From Candidatus Omnitrophota bacterium (GTDB lineage: Bacteria > Omnitrophota > Gorgyraeia > Zapsychrales > Zapsychraceae), in contig JADFZM010000002.1 of assembly GCA_015232535.1 (NCBI GenBank), forward strand, positions 1 to 52,203: a DNA stretch of 52,203 nt, given 5' to 3'. Below, piece by piece: positions 13,036-20,759 of the stretch; the first letter of the stretch is position 1, and the number at the start of each line of letters is the position of its first letter. The position numbers were made by a program, and so were the translations under genes. The notes beneath the pieces are model-generated. The model worked only from the letters and a program-made list of their open reading frames with translations, searched no databases and was not told the origin of the DNA.

Positions 13036-14118
13036 ATGAAAATACTCGTTATCTACGCTTCGGCCGGGGCCGGGCATCAAAAGGCCGCGGAGGCTATTTA
13101 CGAAGGTATAAAGAAATATACTTCCCACGAGGCGAGGCTCGTCGATGTACTTGATTATACCAATTCAAAGAATTTATATAAAAAAAGCTACTTTTTAATG
13201 ATCTCTAAGGCCCCTTGGCTATGGGCTTTCTTTTTCGGTTTGATCGATATCCCCTGGCTGCAGCCATTGGTTCGTTTTGTAAGAAGGGTTTATAACTCGA
13301 TAATTGCAGTTAAACTGGAGAAATTCCTTAAGGCGGAACAGTTTGATTATATTTTATCGACCCATTTCATGCCTAATGAGGTCGCTTCAAGCTTAAAAGC
13401 CAAAGGTTTGATCAAATCAAAAGTGATCTCCTGCGTGACCGATTTTGACGTTCATAAGATATGGCTGGGGAAAGCGGTTGATAAATATACTGTTGCCTGC
13501 GAATGGACTAAAGAGAAATTAAAGTCTATCGGAATAGATGAGAAAAAGATCTTTGTGACCGGTATCCCTACTAACGAAAAATTCGCCGCTAAAGTTGATG
13601 TTTCCGAATTGAAAAAGAAATTAGGGGTAAGGCCGGATGCTTTTACGGCTCTTATTGCGACCGGCTCTTTTGGTATCGGGCCGATCGAGGAAATAATAAA
13701 GGCTTTGAACGGAGAAATGCAGGTTGTGGTCGTTTGCGGACATAACAAAGGCTTGTATCAAACATTAAGCGAACAAAAATACGGCGATGTTGTCGTATTT
13801 AGCCTGGTTGATAACATGTACGAGCTGATGTCGGTTGCCGATGTTATGGTCACTAAGCCCGGCGGATTGTCTATCTCCGAGGCCTTGGTTAAGCAGCTCC
13901 CGATGATATTCTTCAGCCCTATCCCGGGGCAGGAAACCAACAACATTATGGTTTTAAAGCGTTATGGAATCGGCTTTGAAGGCTCGGGGATAGAAGAGAT
14001 TGTTTCGGAACTGAAAAGCCTTATGAATTCCCGAGATAAATTCCTGACGGCATTAAAGATGACCACAAACTTATCTTATCCTTCCGCGGTAAAAGATATT
14101 GTTTCGCTTATTGTATGA
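13036..14118 (+). CDS. MGDG synthase / UgtP-like processive diacylglycerol glycosyltransferase
   Basis: ILVIYASAGAGHQKAAEAIYEGI N-terminal signature; VMVTKPGGLSISEALVKQLPMIFFSPIPGQETNN. Confidence 0.87.
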   Translation: MKILVIYASAGAGHQKAAEAIYEGIKKYTSHEARLVDVLDYTNSKNLYKKSYFLMISKAPWLWAFFFGLIDIPWLQPLVRFVRRVYNSIIAVKLEKFLKAEQFDYILSTHFMPNEVASSLKAKGLIKSKVISCVTDFDVHKIWLGKAVDKYTVACEWTKEKLKSIGIDEKKIFVTGIPTNEKFAAKVDVSELKKKLGVRPDAFTALIATGSFGIGPIEEIIKALNGEMQVVVVCGHNKGLYQTLSEQKYGDVVVFSLVDNMYELMSVADVMVTKPGGLSISEALVKQLPMIFFSPIPGQETNNIMVLKRYGIGFEGSGIEEIVSELKSLMNSRDKFLTALKMTTNLSYPSAVKDIVSLIV

Positions 14119-15959
14119 GCAAGACCGTCGCCCAAGTTGTTTTTAGCCTGCCTATAGAAGGCCATTTCGACTATTCTGTCGACGATAAGTTGAAAAGTGC
14201 TATTTACCCCGGCCAGAGGGTCAAAGTCGTTTTCAATAAAAGAAAAATCATCGGATATATTCTAAAGCTGAGCAACAAAAGCCAAATTCAAGACCTCAAT
14301 CCGGTTATTGAGGTGCTGGATAAAGGGCGGATTTTATCCGACGGGGAATTGGCTTTTGCCGGGGAATTCAGCCGCTATTACGGGTGCAGTTTAGGCGAGG
14401 CGATAGAATGTTTTCTTCCCGTTGCCCTAAGAGGAGCGGCGAAGACTTTATCTGTCGTTAAAGAGCCTGTTTATAACCCAGGGGTTAAGCCGAAGGCCAC
14501 AGTTTTGAACATGCCGGATAAAGAGGCGGGTTTTAAATATTTGCTGGAGCGTATAAAAACCTATACCGATGATAAAAAGGGGATCCTTATAATTGTCCCC
14601 GAGAGTGCACAGGTAAAGCGCCTTACTGAGGTTATTAAGAAAGCTATAGACGCGCCGATACTTTCTCTTGAGCGGCCTCTTGTTATGAAAAGCGATATCT
14701 CAAAATGGGAAGCTATCAAAAATGGCGATACGGGCATAGTTGTCGGTACGCGATCTTCGGTTTTTTCGCCTCTCTATAAATTGGGGTTAATCGTTATGTT
14801 CCACGAGTGCAACTACAGCTACCGGCAGGAGCAGTCCCCGCATTACCATACCCGCGATGTATGTTTAATGCGCTCTAAGTTATCCGGTTGTGACCTTATT
14901 TTTGCCGGCGAGGCTTTTAGCGCCGAAGTTTGGAACATGAAAAACAAGTTTAAATGGGAGTACAAAGACTTCCCCAGAGAAAAATATGCCGATCTCCAGA
15001 TCGTCGATATGGAGAATTACGGGCCGAAAACAAATTACTATTTATCTTATCCTTTGCAGAATGCGATCTCTAAATCTTTGGCGGAGAATAAAAAGGCATT
15101 GTTGTTTTTTAACCGAAAAGGATTCAATTCCAGGACTCAGTGCAGCCAATGCGGATACACCCTGAAATGCGAAAGGTGCGATACGTGGCTTACCTTTATA
15201 TATTCTGCCCAGTCCCTGGCCTGCCCGCGCTGCGGATTCAAATGCGAGCTCCCTAAGATTTGCCCGAAATGCGAGAAATCCTACTTGAAATCTTCCGGAA
15301 TGGGAATTGAAAAACTGGAAAGCGACCTAATGCGGTTCTTCCCTCAGGCTAAGATTTGCTGTTTTGATAAGGATTCGAAGAATTTTAATCCGGACGCGAA
15401 TATCATTATCGCCACCTCGGCTATCCTGAAAAAGGCAGACACATTGAATATCGATATCGCTGCCTGCATTAACCTCGACTCTGAATTGAACCGGCCGGAT
15501 TACCGAAGCGCCGAAGGGGCCTTCTTTTTGCTGATAGCTTTGCGGAATTTGGCGAAAGAAAAGCTGATTGTTCAGACCCGGTTGCCTGATAATTACTCAT
15601 TAAGATCCTTAAAAAAGCTGGATTTTAATGCGTTTTACAAAGAGGAGTTAAAATTAAGGAAAGAGTTAGGTTTCCCTCCATATAAGGATATGGTGGTTGT
15701 GACTTTGCGCGCCGCGGATAAAAAGAAGGCGGAGGAAAGCGCGGAAGAATTATATAAAGCGCTTATAGAGAAGAAGCCCAAAAACATAGAAATTATCGAG
15801 CCCCAGCCCAGCATTGTTCCGAAGTTGCGGGATAAGTTCCGATATAGTATCATGCTTAAAGGGCGTTCCCCGGATAAGCTTATAAGTTATTTAAAAGATT
15901 GCCAAAAAAGACAGAAAAACAAACATTCTGTGGTGACAACGATAGAAGTGAACCCTTAA
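14115..15959 (+). CDS. priA: PriA homologue (primosomal protein N'), apparently ATPase/helicase-degenerate
   Basis: 614 aa; VGTRSSVFSPLYKLGLI..YRQEQSPHYHTRDV and Zn-binding CSQCGYTLKCERCDTWLTF...CPRCGF..CPKC match PriA. No Walker A GxGKT and no DEEH in the translation. Confidence 0.85.
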   Translation: MSKTVAQVVFSLPIEGHFDYSVDDKLKSAIYPGQRVKVVFNKRKIIGYILKLSNKSQIQDLNPVIEVLDKGRILSDGELAFAGEFSRYYGCSLGEAIECFLPVALRGAAKTLSVVKEPVYNPGVKPKATVLNMPDKEAGFKYLLERIKTYTDDKKGILIIVPESAQVKRLTEVIKKAIDAPILSLERPLVMKSDISKWEAIKNGDTGIVVGTRSSVFSPLYKLGLIVMFHECNYSYRQEQSPHYHTRDVCLMRSKLSGCDLIFAGEAFSAEVWNMKNKFKWEYKDFPREKYADLQIVDMENYGPKTNYYLSYPLQNAISKSLAENKKALLFFNRKGFNSRTQCSQCGYTLKCERCDTWLTFIYSAQSLACPRCGFKCELPKICPKCEKSYLKSSGMGIEKLESDLMRFFPQAKICCFDKDSKNFNPDANIIIATSAILKKADTLNIDIAACINLDSELNRPDYRSAEGAFFLLIALRNLAKEKLIVQTRLPDNYSLRSLKKLDFNAFYKEELKLRKELGFPPYKDMVVVTLRAADKKKAEESAEELYKALIEKKPKNIEIIEPQPSIVPKLRDKFRYSIMLKGRSPDKLISYLKDCQKRQKNKHSVVTTIEVNP

Positions 15960-15961
15960 AG

Positions 15962-16894
15962 ATGAAAATAGTATTTTTCGGAAGCGACGATTTCGCGGCG
16001 TGCCATTTAGAGGCTCTTTTGTCGGCAAAAGAGGGGATAATTTGCTGCGTTTGCCCCGTCGATAAAGCCGTCGGGCGCGGAATGCGAAAGGCCTCGTCCC
16101 CGGTCAAGGAAATCGCTGTCAAAAATGGCATTGATGTTTTGCAGCCGCTTGATCTTATGGATAGAGGCTTTTTAGAGAAGCTAGAGGCATTTGAAGCGGA
16201 CCTTTTTATAGTCATCGCATACGGGAAAATACTTCCCAAGGAAGTTTTAACGATACCAAGAATATTTTCGATAAATGTCCATGCCTCATTGTTGCCTAAA
16301 TACCGCGGAGCGGCTCCTATAAACTGGGCTGTTATAAACGGAGAAGAATCTACCGGCATAACCATTATAAAAATCAACGAAAAAATGGATGCCGGAGAGA
16401 TCGTAAGCTCATGCATCGTTCCTATTTCCCGCGGCGATACGTCGTATCAGTTAAGGGAGAAAATGAAAAGTATCGGGCCTCAGCTCCTAAAAGGCACGGT
16501 TCAAGCGATTTTGGCGGGTAAATATAAATTAACTTCGCAGGACGAGTCAAAGGTAAGTTTTGCCCCGAAATTGACAAAAGAAAACGGCAAGATCGACTGG
16601 AATAATCAAGCCGAGGCCATATGCAATAAAGTTAGGGGCCTTTTGCCCTGGCCTTCTGCTTATACTTTTTATCGTGGAAAGATGCTGAAAATATTGAGAG
16701 CGGATGTCTCGGCTTTTATGGCGCAGGGGCATAAGCCGGGCGAGGTTGTTTCAACCGATAAGAAGGGGGTAAACATAGCCGCTAAGGGAAGCGTTGTCCT
16801 GATTAAGGAAGTGCATTTACAGGACGGGAAGCAAATTTCAGCCTTTGATTTTACTTTAGGGCATGAGTTGAATCCCGGGGAGCGTTTGGAATAA
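15962..16894 (+). CDS. fmt: Methionyl-tRNA formyltransferase
   Basis: Start at ATG 15962 (ORF track begins 15899). MKIVFFGSDDFAACHLEAL; INVHASLLPKYRGAAPINWAVINGEESTGITI. Confidence 0.93.
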   Translation: MKIVFFGSDDFAACHLEALLSAKEGIICCVCPVDKAVGRGMRKASSPVKEIAVKNGIDVLQPLDLMDRGFLEKLEAFEADLFIVIAYGKILPKEVLTIPRIFSINVHASLLPKYRGAAPINWAVINGEESTGITIIKINEKMDAGEIVSSCIVPISRGDTSYQLREKMKSIGPQLLKGTVQAILAGKYKLTSQDESKVSFAPKLTKENGKIDWNNQAEAICNKVRGLLPWPSAYTFYRGKMLKILRADVSAFMAQGHKPGEVVSTDKKGVNIAAKGSVVLIKEVHLQDGKQISAFDFTLGHELNPGERLE

Positions 16895-19030: not shown

Positions 19031-20200
19031 TTACCTGCCGCCGTACTGTTCCATCAAAAGCATCTTTGACCCTTTAGTCGGTGGCTTTGTTGTCTTTGCG
19101 GCTTCTATTGTATTGCCATAAGCCCCGATATTTACTCTTCCGCCGTTATAATTGGGCTCAAGAGAATAGGGGTCTGCCGGATCTCCTTGATCGATTACCG
19201 GAGAAATAAAGTTTTGCTCATGAAAGTCTCCGTTTGCCGCATCGACAAAAAGAGGGTCCTCGGAGATATTGTTAGCAAGAGTTGCTCGACCGGTCTGATA
19301 ATCACCCGAATCGTTTAAGTATACATCATTATATGAAACTGTTACGTTTTGGTCGCGGTCGGTAGTAAGCTTTGTTACTATTCCCCTCCCGCGGTTATTA
19401 AATACAACATTGTTCCTAATACTAACTGATAATGGTGTGTAATAGAGAGCTGTTGATATTGCTTTTCCTTGGGTGTTTGTAAGCCCGGTTATGGTGTTAT
19501 TAACTATAGTTCCTCGAAAAAGCTGACCTTCCGCTTGAATTCCATTGCCAAAATTTGTTATTAAATTGTTTCTGATTATAACTTGTTCATTGACGGTATT
19601 TGAATTAGATAAAATACCTACTGAGTTAGGGCAATTATTAGATCCCAAGATTATTAGTTTATTTCCGGAGATGGAACCGGATGTTCCACTAAACTCGAAC
19701 CCCTTCTGTACAGAACAGGATCCGTTATGGACTTCAAAATGATTGTTGGTAATTCTCGCATTGGATACTCCAAGAGCGACTACACCAGTACCAACTACAT
19801 TTACAAACTTTGAATTCCTGACTTCCATTTCAGAGCTATAATTAAATGATAAATCAATGTTGTCGAATTTCATGTTTTCAATAACAATGTTGTCAGAATC
19901 AAAAACGTGTATAGATAGATTCAGGATAGTGTCTTCCGATGATTCACCCCTAAATGTCAGATTTGATTTATTTTCCAAGTAGATATGCGGTTCTCCTTCC
20001 TCAGGATTTTCCGAGGAGGAGGGAACATACACTCCGTTAGCAATAAAAATAGTATCTCCTTCTTCAGCTGCGTCTATGGCTTGATAGATTTTTGGGTAAT
20101 CTGCAGGAACATTAAGAGTCGCCGCTTCACCAATATAGGGAAGGGCCCAGAAACAAACAACTGCGGTGAGAAAAACTGTTGATAGGGTTAATTTCTTCAT
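19031..20200 (-). CDS. Secreted right-handed parallel beta-helix repeat protein
   Basis: Likely start ATG at 20200 (MKKLTLSTVFLTAVVCFWALPYIGEA signal peptide). VPADYPKIYQAIDAAEEGDTIFIANGVY then repeated N-rich strands; IDQGDPADPYSLEPNYNGGRVNIGAYGNT C-terminal motif. Confidence 0.85.
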   Translation of the reverse strand: MKKLTLSTVFLTAVVCFWALPYIGEAATLNVPADYPKIYQAIDAAEEGDTIFIANGVYVPSSSENPEEGEPHIYLENKSNLTFRGESSEDTILNLSIHVFDSDNIVIENMKFDNIDLSFNYSSEMEVRNSKFVNVVGTGVVALGVSNARITNNHFEVHNGSCSVQKGFEFSGTSGSISGNKLIILGSNNCPNSVGILSNSNTVNEQVIIRNNLITNFGNGIQAEGQLFRGTIVNNTITGLTNTQGKAISTALYYTPLSVSIRNNVVFNNRGRGIVTKLTTDRDQNVTVSYNDVYLNDSGDYQTGRATLANNISEDPLFVDAANGDFHEQNFISPVIDQGDPADPYSLEPNYNGGRVNIGAYGNTIEAAKTTKPPTKGSKMLLMEQYGGR

Positions 20201-20225
20201 TAAGATCTCCTTTCGTTCGTGCTGC

Positions 20226-20262
20226 AAAATTTAAAAGCCCTTTTCCTTATCAGAATAGGGCT
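20226..20262 (-). terminator. Candidate terminator in the leader of the beta-helix gene (riboswitch expression platform)
   Basis: On the - strand: AGCCCT-15 nt-AGGGCT followed by TTTAAATTTT, between the riboswitch aptamer and the start codon. Confidence 0.5.
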
Positions 20263-20284: not shown

Positions 20285-20360
20285 TTCGGTAGTCCGGCTA
20301 TCCTTTTTAAGGACCATGGATTTTGCGTCCCAGCATTACTGCTGGTTTGCCTTTATCGTA
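20285..20360 (-). ncRNA. Cyclic di-GMP-I (GEMM) riboswitch aptamer
   Basis: - strand reads ATAAAGGCAAACCAGCAGTAATGCTGGGACGCAAAATCCATGGTCCTTAAAAAGGATAGCCGGACTACCGA. It has conserved GGCAAACC, a P2 stem CCAGCA/TGCTGG with GTAA (GNRA) tetraloop, GGGACGCAAA, and AGGATAGCCGGACTACCGA. Confidence 0.9.
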
Positions 20361-20759
20361 AAACGACAAATATTTTATACATCCGTTTACAAGAATAGCA
20401 TTAATTTTCAATCTGTCAAGGGAGAGAATTTTAAAAAAGCCTTTTCCCGCTGATTTCAAATTACGAAGCTGCTAATCATAAGTGCTTGATATATAATAGC
20501 TTACAAGATAGAAGATAATTATCTACGTAGTTTAACAATGAATTAAAAAGCGTAATAAATAAAATTTATATTTTCACTGGGCTCAGTGTTCGGAATTCAG
20601 GATATTTCGTAATTCAAGCAGAAAAAAAAGAAAGGGCATGTATTTTGAATATCCCCCAAATAAAACTTAAGTTTAAACCGCCAATTGCTTAAAATCATAA
20701 ATTAATAGGCCCTTATTTTACAGAAATGATATAATTATTAAAATAAATACAAGGATAAT

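Follow-up and report, generated by a model that had tools for sequence, protein, structure and literature searches.

Organization of the priA locus

In the window, i.e., the whole stretch of 52,203 nucleotides that was analyzed (contig JADFZM010000002.1 of the Candidatus Omnitrophota assembly GCA_015232535.1), priA is a single uninterrupted open reading frame, with the boundaries and strand that a first-pass annotation had assigned to it. Its start overlaps the end of the upstream glycosyltransferase gene in an ATGA junction, and the TTG start listed for the downstream fmt gene lies within priA; the real start of fmt is probably farther downstream. The glycosyltransferase-priA-fmt synteny is conserved among relatives, and fmt directly follows priA in 55 of the 65 relatives compared. 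Among six genes compared with their counterparts in the congener (G001), priA is the fastest evolving, with 48% identity versus 63-93% for its neighbors. No repeats were found within or around it. The features of the locus are collected in Table 1.

Elsewhere in the window, a c-di-GMP-I riboswitch is predicted at 20285-20361 on the minus strand (58.7 bits, gathering threshold 35), just upstream of an open reading frame (19031-20227, minus strand) whose product resembles a secreted parallel-beta-helix protein. Beyond these two elements, the plus strand carries type IV pilus genes whose products, judged by eye, resemble PilB and PilC.

Table 1. Features of the priA locus, in coordinates of the window.
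Feature	Position	Strand	Basis
MGDG-synthase-like glycosyltransferase, conserved upstream neighbor	13036..14118	+	Pfam, synteny
priA pseudohelicase ORF, 614 aa	14115..15959	+	NCBIfam TIGR00595
3' DNA-binding domain (3'BD), aa 7-102	14133..14420	+	Pfam PF17764, E=8e-21
ex-Walker A unit, aa ~127-152: strand, substituted loop, helix; without GxxGxGKT	14493..14570	+	alignment, AF2
ex-Walker B (FHEC), then retained aromatic-rich loop YRQEQSPHYHTRD, aa ~228-247	14796..14855	+	alignment
zinc-binding cysteine-rich region, 8 Cys, aa 343-386	15141..15272	+	alignment A1
ex-motifs V and VI, catalytic residues gone, aa ~430-482	15402..15560	+	alignment
PriA C-terminal domain, aa 522-614	15678..15956	+	Pfam PF18074, E=7.7e-16
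fmt, methionyl-tRNA formyltransferase, conserved downstream neighbor	15899..16894	+	Pfam PF00551 and PF02911

Family membership and fold

The window protein is a PriA orthologue. It matches the PriA family model TIGR00595 with 331.5 bits (cut-off 230.35) over profile positions 15-508, beginning just past the start of Walker A, and it covers both the entire 3'BD profile (PF17764, 74.1 bits, 1-96) and that of the PriA C-terminal domain (PF18074, 59.1 bits, 1-95 of 95); none of the Pfam helicase-domain models matched within the E-value limit used. The CxxC zinc motifs noted at first reading are present, four in number and located in an insertion of lobe 2. Their eight cysteines (C343, C346, C352, C355, C370, C373, C383, and C386) align with E. 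coli C436-C479 and are invariant in alignment A1, as are F18-D19-Y20, the counterparts of E. coli F16-D17-Y18.

The AlphaFold2 (AF2) model of the protein, built from 31 sequences, has a pLDDT of 88.7 and a pTM of 0.86. Its top structural matches are all PriA proteins, including E. coli PriA bound to a fork (8fak_H, Z 33.5, 597 aligned residues, 2.8 Å) and E. coli PriA without its winged helix (6dcr_B, Z 37.1); the Foldseek TMq is 0.89. The alignment with PriA structures that had been proposed as a check thus gave a match over the whole length of the chain; the next-best match after PriA, Mfd (Z 18.5), covers mostly the lobes. The winged-helix domain between the 3'BD and lobe 1 is not present in the window protein, in which 55 residues separate the end of the 3'BD from motif Ia, versus 147 in E. 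coli and 79-101 in the intact PriAs of other Omnitrophota. As the intact proteins are also short in this region, most of the shortening predates the loss of the motor, and the idea that the winged helix disappeared as part of that loss was rejected.

Loss of the motor motifs

In the alignment to E. coli PriA, the Walker A sequence GVTGSGKTEVY is replaced by MPDKEAGFKYL, VIDEEHDSSYKQQ by VMFHECNYSYRQE, IILGSATPALE by LIFAGEAFSAE, ILIGTQMLAKGHHFP by IIIATSAILKKADTL, and FAQLYTQVAGRAGR by AFFLLIALRNLAKE. The DEEH box reads FHEC, no catalytic residue is left in motifs V and VI, and the SF2 motifs I, II, III, V, and VI that characterize an active helicase are not retained. The replacements quoted in the first-pass annotation (no GVTGSGKT, FHECN, AGEAFS, and the motif V/VI region) were accurate. 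Its broader statement that all helicase motifs are lost goes a little too far: the VGTRSS box, which it had itself listed as kept, is still there, as are FFNRKGF in the region of motif IV, a portion of motif Ia (VPES), and the aromatic loop YRQEQSPHYHTRD. The former P-loop was swapped in place, as the strand (128-132) and the helix (136-152) that flank it persist in the AF2 model, and the Q-motif stretch upstream of it is gone. Judged from these substitutions, the window PriA would be devoid of ATPase activity, and with ATP hydrolysis unwinding would be lost as well.

Distribution of the losses among Omnitrophota

Whether relatives share the losses had been raised as a check at first reading, and they do, beyond chance. 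Residue statistics were compiled for 85 motor-less ("dead") PriAs of the main clade, i.e., from the order of the window's genome and its sister families, and for 42 intact PriAs from Omnitrophota families outside this clade. In the dead clade, the residue equivalent to E. coli K230 is retained in 5% of the proteins, the GKT threonine T231 in none of the 85, motif V Gly538 in 1%, and the motif VI arginines R584 and R587 in 1% (one protein of 85) and 4%, respectively, whereas the Walker A lysine and threonine, the motif V glycine, and the motif VI arginines are found in 95-100% of the intact proteins. Other positions have been preserved in the same 85 proteins, namely F16 (100%), D17 (99%), the tyrosines of the aromatic loop (93-94%), E322 of motif II (94%), and the zinc cysteines (approximately 92%, the other members having lost the whole domain). 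The former P-loop has acquired a consensus of its own, HDxxxxKRWxxY, with the arginine present in 57 and the tryptophan in 54 of the 85 sequences. The window PriA has diverged farther than most PriAs of its order and is devoid of this RW pair.

All of the PriAs extracted and aligned from the window's family and order are without a Walker A motif. In a sample of 285 Omnitrophota genomes, with contig-end fragments set aside, matches to the PriA model are bimodal, with full-length matches at E-values below 1e-160, starting at profile position 1 or 2, on the one hand, and degenerate matches of approximately 1e-24 to 1e-133 on the other. Dead PriAs occur under 22 family codes in this sample. Two side observations may be recorded here. 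The D17 column (residue 19 of the window protein) is an aspartate in 84 of the 85 dead-clade PriAs; most intact Omnitrophota proteins have His, Thr, Gln, or Ser there. In addition, contig SBBM01000045.1 (L270), labeled as a Planctomycetales bacterium, encodes a dead PriA of the Omnitrophota type; the label is probably wrong.

Selection and domain-wise constraint

Dead PriAs are under purifying selection. For close pairs, dN/dS ranges from 0.088 to 0.153 among dead PriAs and from 0.035 to 0.123 among intact ones; the pair formed by the window protein and its congener is saturated, with dS undefined. The ranking of the domains by constraint is reversed. Intact PriAs are most conserved in their motor lobes (mean pairwise identities of 0.60 and 0.67, versus 0.44 for the 3'BD and 0.40 for the C-terminal domain), whereas in the dead clade the 3'BD comes first (0.41), followed by the zinc domain (0.38), the lobes (0.29 and 0.34), and the C-terminal domain (0.32). 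Together, the dN/dS values and the domain identities indicate that the dead protein is maintained, and that its fork-end reader, the 3'BD, is maintained best. The proposal of the first-pass annotation that this is an ATPase-dead, structural PriA under selection is thereby supported, given the shared losses, the predominance of synonymous changes, and the PriA fold throughout the chain.

Evolutionary history

Species trees were built with RpoB and RpoC and, in a second version, with RpoB, RpoC, ribosomal proteins, and SecY. The order of the window's genome and families f13, f15, f20, f25, f27-30, f32, f37-39, and f46 (the last sampled in the RpoB+RpoC tree only) form one clade with an SH-aLRT of 100. 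Four further lineages with dead PriAs (f18, f31, f43, and f44) sit among intact families, on starred branches, and the tree that includes ribosomal proteins requires five changes, every one of them on starred branches. Nevertheless, a single dead clade was not rejected by the AU test (p 0.40 and 0.34), and in a PriA tree with motif columns masked all of the dead PriAs group together (SH-aLRT 96), a result to which long-branch attraction might contribute. Five independent losses were therefore set aside as a firm claim, and between one and five losses of the motor in the phylum are possible. The RpoB proteins of the main clade (L201, L142-L218) have a deletion of approximately 75-95 residues (TIGR02013 positions ~219-297, E. 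coli residues from ~227). The segment is present in the full-length RpoB proteins of the four isolated dead-PriA lineages and in intact relatives, and the deletion looks like a clade marker.

Erosion has gone farther in some members. Seven of the 85 dead PriAs, but none of the 42 intact ones, have lost the zinc domain in addition to the motor (L090, L092-L095, L098, and L112; 554-599 residues; families f1, f7, and f38). In six MAGs (G053, G093, G149, G152, G172, and G262; completeness 92-97%), no PriA was detected with TIGR00595, the 3'BD model, or a profile of the clade, which yielded SF2 cross-hits only; as these genomes are at least 92% complete, PriA may be dispensable in places. It is conceivable, and we put it forward tentatively, that PriA is being dismantled stepwise and in one direction, from an intact protein to a motor-less one (perhaps several times), then to one without motor and zinc domain, and finally to no detectable PriA. 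The conserved HD..RW structure gained by the dead P-loop of the main clade would then fit with ATP-independent restart being the normal way for dozens of families.

Comparison with known PriA proteins

The window PriA is a pseudohelicase, i.e., a PriA orthologue whose catalytic motifs are lost. Such proteins are already known in Deinococcus-Thermus and, from sequence, probably in Actinobacteria. Actinobacterial PriA is annotated as lacking detectable helicase motifs. It has been described as a smaller, very divergent putative orthologue (PMC1193525). The window protein lies outside that branch, as it scores 391 bits on PRK05580 models and at best 152.5 on PRK14873 (cut-off 812). The PriA of Deinococcus radiodurans is also an orthologue with defective helicase motifs and retained DNA-binding regions. 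It neither hydrolyzes ATP nor unwinds DNA, but its affinities for single-stranded DNA and for forks are similar to those of the E. coli protein, and it makes contact with DnaB (PMC4504706). In Deinococcus-Thermus, however, the P-loop is recognizable, with its lysine changed to arginine, whereas in the Omnitrophota dead clade the whole P-loop and motifs V and VI are replaced (MPDKEAGFKYL in the window protein, HDxxxxKRWxxY in the clade); the phylum also differs, and in some Omnitrophota members the zinc domain has been lost too. With the E. coli and Klebsiella proteins (8FAK, 6DCR, and 4NL4), the window PriA shares the 3'BD, the two RecA-like lobes, the zinc region, and the C-terminal domain, but it differs from them by the absence of ATPase and helicase motifs and of the winged helix, and by its length (614 versus 732 residues).

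The Omnitrophota dead PriA is thus a new, more extreme lineage of an established kind rather than a new category. Its new features are the phylum in which it occurs, its wide distribution (22 family codes), a P-loop that has been replaced altogether, and, in some members, the additional loss of the zinc domain. Among the open-access papers searched, we found no paper linking PriA with Omnitrophota and no biochemistry of any Omnitrophota PriA, and the main genome paper of the phylum does not mention PriA.

A putative scaffold for replication restart

E. coli PriA provides a precedent. The ATPase-dead K230A variant loads DnaB in vitro, PriA-PriB restart in vivo is independent of the PriA ATPase, and binding to a fork is enough to pivot the zinc region and form a pore for lagging-strand single-stranded DNA (PMC10175261). 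D17 has been described as crucial for recognition of the DNA 3' end without base selectivity (PMC4129139). By analogy, the Omnitrophota dead PriA may be a fork-recognition scaffold, and the window PriA is probably a pseudohelicase that recognizes forks and supports the reloading of DnaB without ATP. At stalled forks or D-loops, the 3'BD would capture the 3' end of the leading strand. The two RecA-like lobes, inactive as they are, would join the zinc and C-terminal domains in gripping the lagging-strand template and in making a docking platform. DnaB would be reloaded next, probably by a DciA-type loader. Restart of this kind would work only on forks with a lagging strand that is already single-stranded, or else would need another enzyme, such as RecG, to expose it. 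For the window PriA itself, we infer fork binding, DnaB reloading, and the involvement of a partner helicase. As the zinc domain, the dock for PriB in E. coli, is lost in seven members of the clade, the platform part of the model is not valid for all of them.

Of 69 genomes, 68 have DnaB and 56 have DciA; DnaB and RecG are both present in the window's genome. A DciA match is absent from that genome (G000) and from its congener (G001), though most relatives have one.

A rather unlikely alternative is that PriA has been repurposed as a factor that binds forks or 3' ends, for instance in fork protection, as a recombination mediator, or as a partner of another helicase, and has ceased to contribute to DnaB reloading. 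The rapid divergence of priA relative to its neighbors, the clade-specific consensus of the former P-loop, the expendability in seven members of the zinc domain, which is the PriB platform of E. coli, and the genomes without detectable PriA would all be in keeping with such a change. On the other hand, approximately 92% of the members have a complete PriA architecture including the zinc and C-terminal domains, and no other restart system was identified among the components searched, DnaB and DciA. Much less probable is a hidden or non-canonical nucleotide site, which might, for instance, bind ATP without hydrolysis and switch the conformation of the protein: many members keep RecA-like lobes, a loop where the P-loop used to be, and some acidic residues of motif II, such as E322, but with neither a glycine-rich loop, the Lys/Thr pair, nor the residues of motifs V and VI, the groups that hold phosphate in SF2 proteins are missing.

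Local decay, a pseudogene, or an assembly error in a normal priA is scarcely credible; the first-pass annotation had named decay and assembly error as grounds for refutation. While the window copy diverges more than most of its order and does not have the RW pair, the recurrence of the same losses across genomes, in 85 PriAs, the open frame, a clade dN/dS near 0.1, the well-formed model, and the conserved operon all speak against it, and the congener, whose protein is 48% identical with the same losses in an open frame, refutes it together with the rest of the clade. Lastly, a second, active PriA elsewhere had been offered as an alternative in the first-pass annotation. Such an intact protein, with the window copy as an accessory, is very improbable. 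The window's MAG is 82.85% complete, but apart from its priA, TIGR00595 matches only Mfd, UvrB, and RecG there, and none of its relatives, including 34 that are at least 90% complete, yielded another PriA-level match; the window priA is the sole PriA found in its genome.

Implications

The scaffold reading thus remains the preferred one. Given that the loss of the motor is common to the branch and that the protein is still under selection, these bacteria seem to restart broken forks by means of a PriA that marks them and cannot unwind DNA. The ATPase of PriA is conserved in most bacteria, yet PriA-PriB restart in E. coli does without it. What the motor is for can be tested by comparison with a large natural lineage whose PriA has kept the scaffold but not the motor. 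The dead lineage shows the irreducible fork-reading parts of PriA, the 3'BD above all, and its zinc-less members test the need for a PriB-docking platform outside PriB-containing bacteria.
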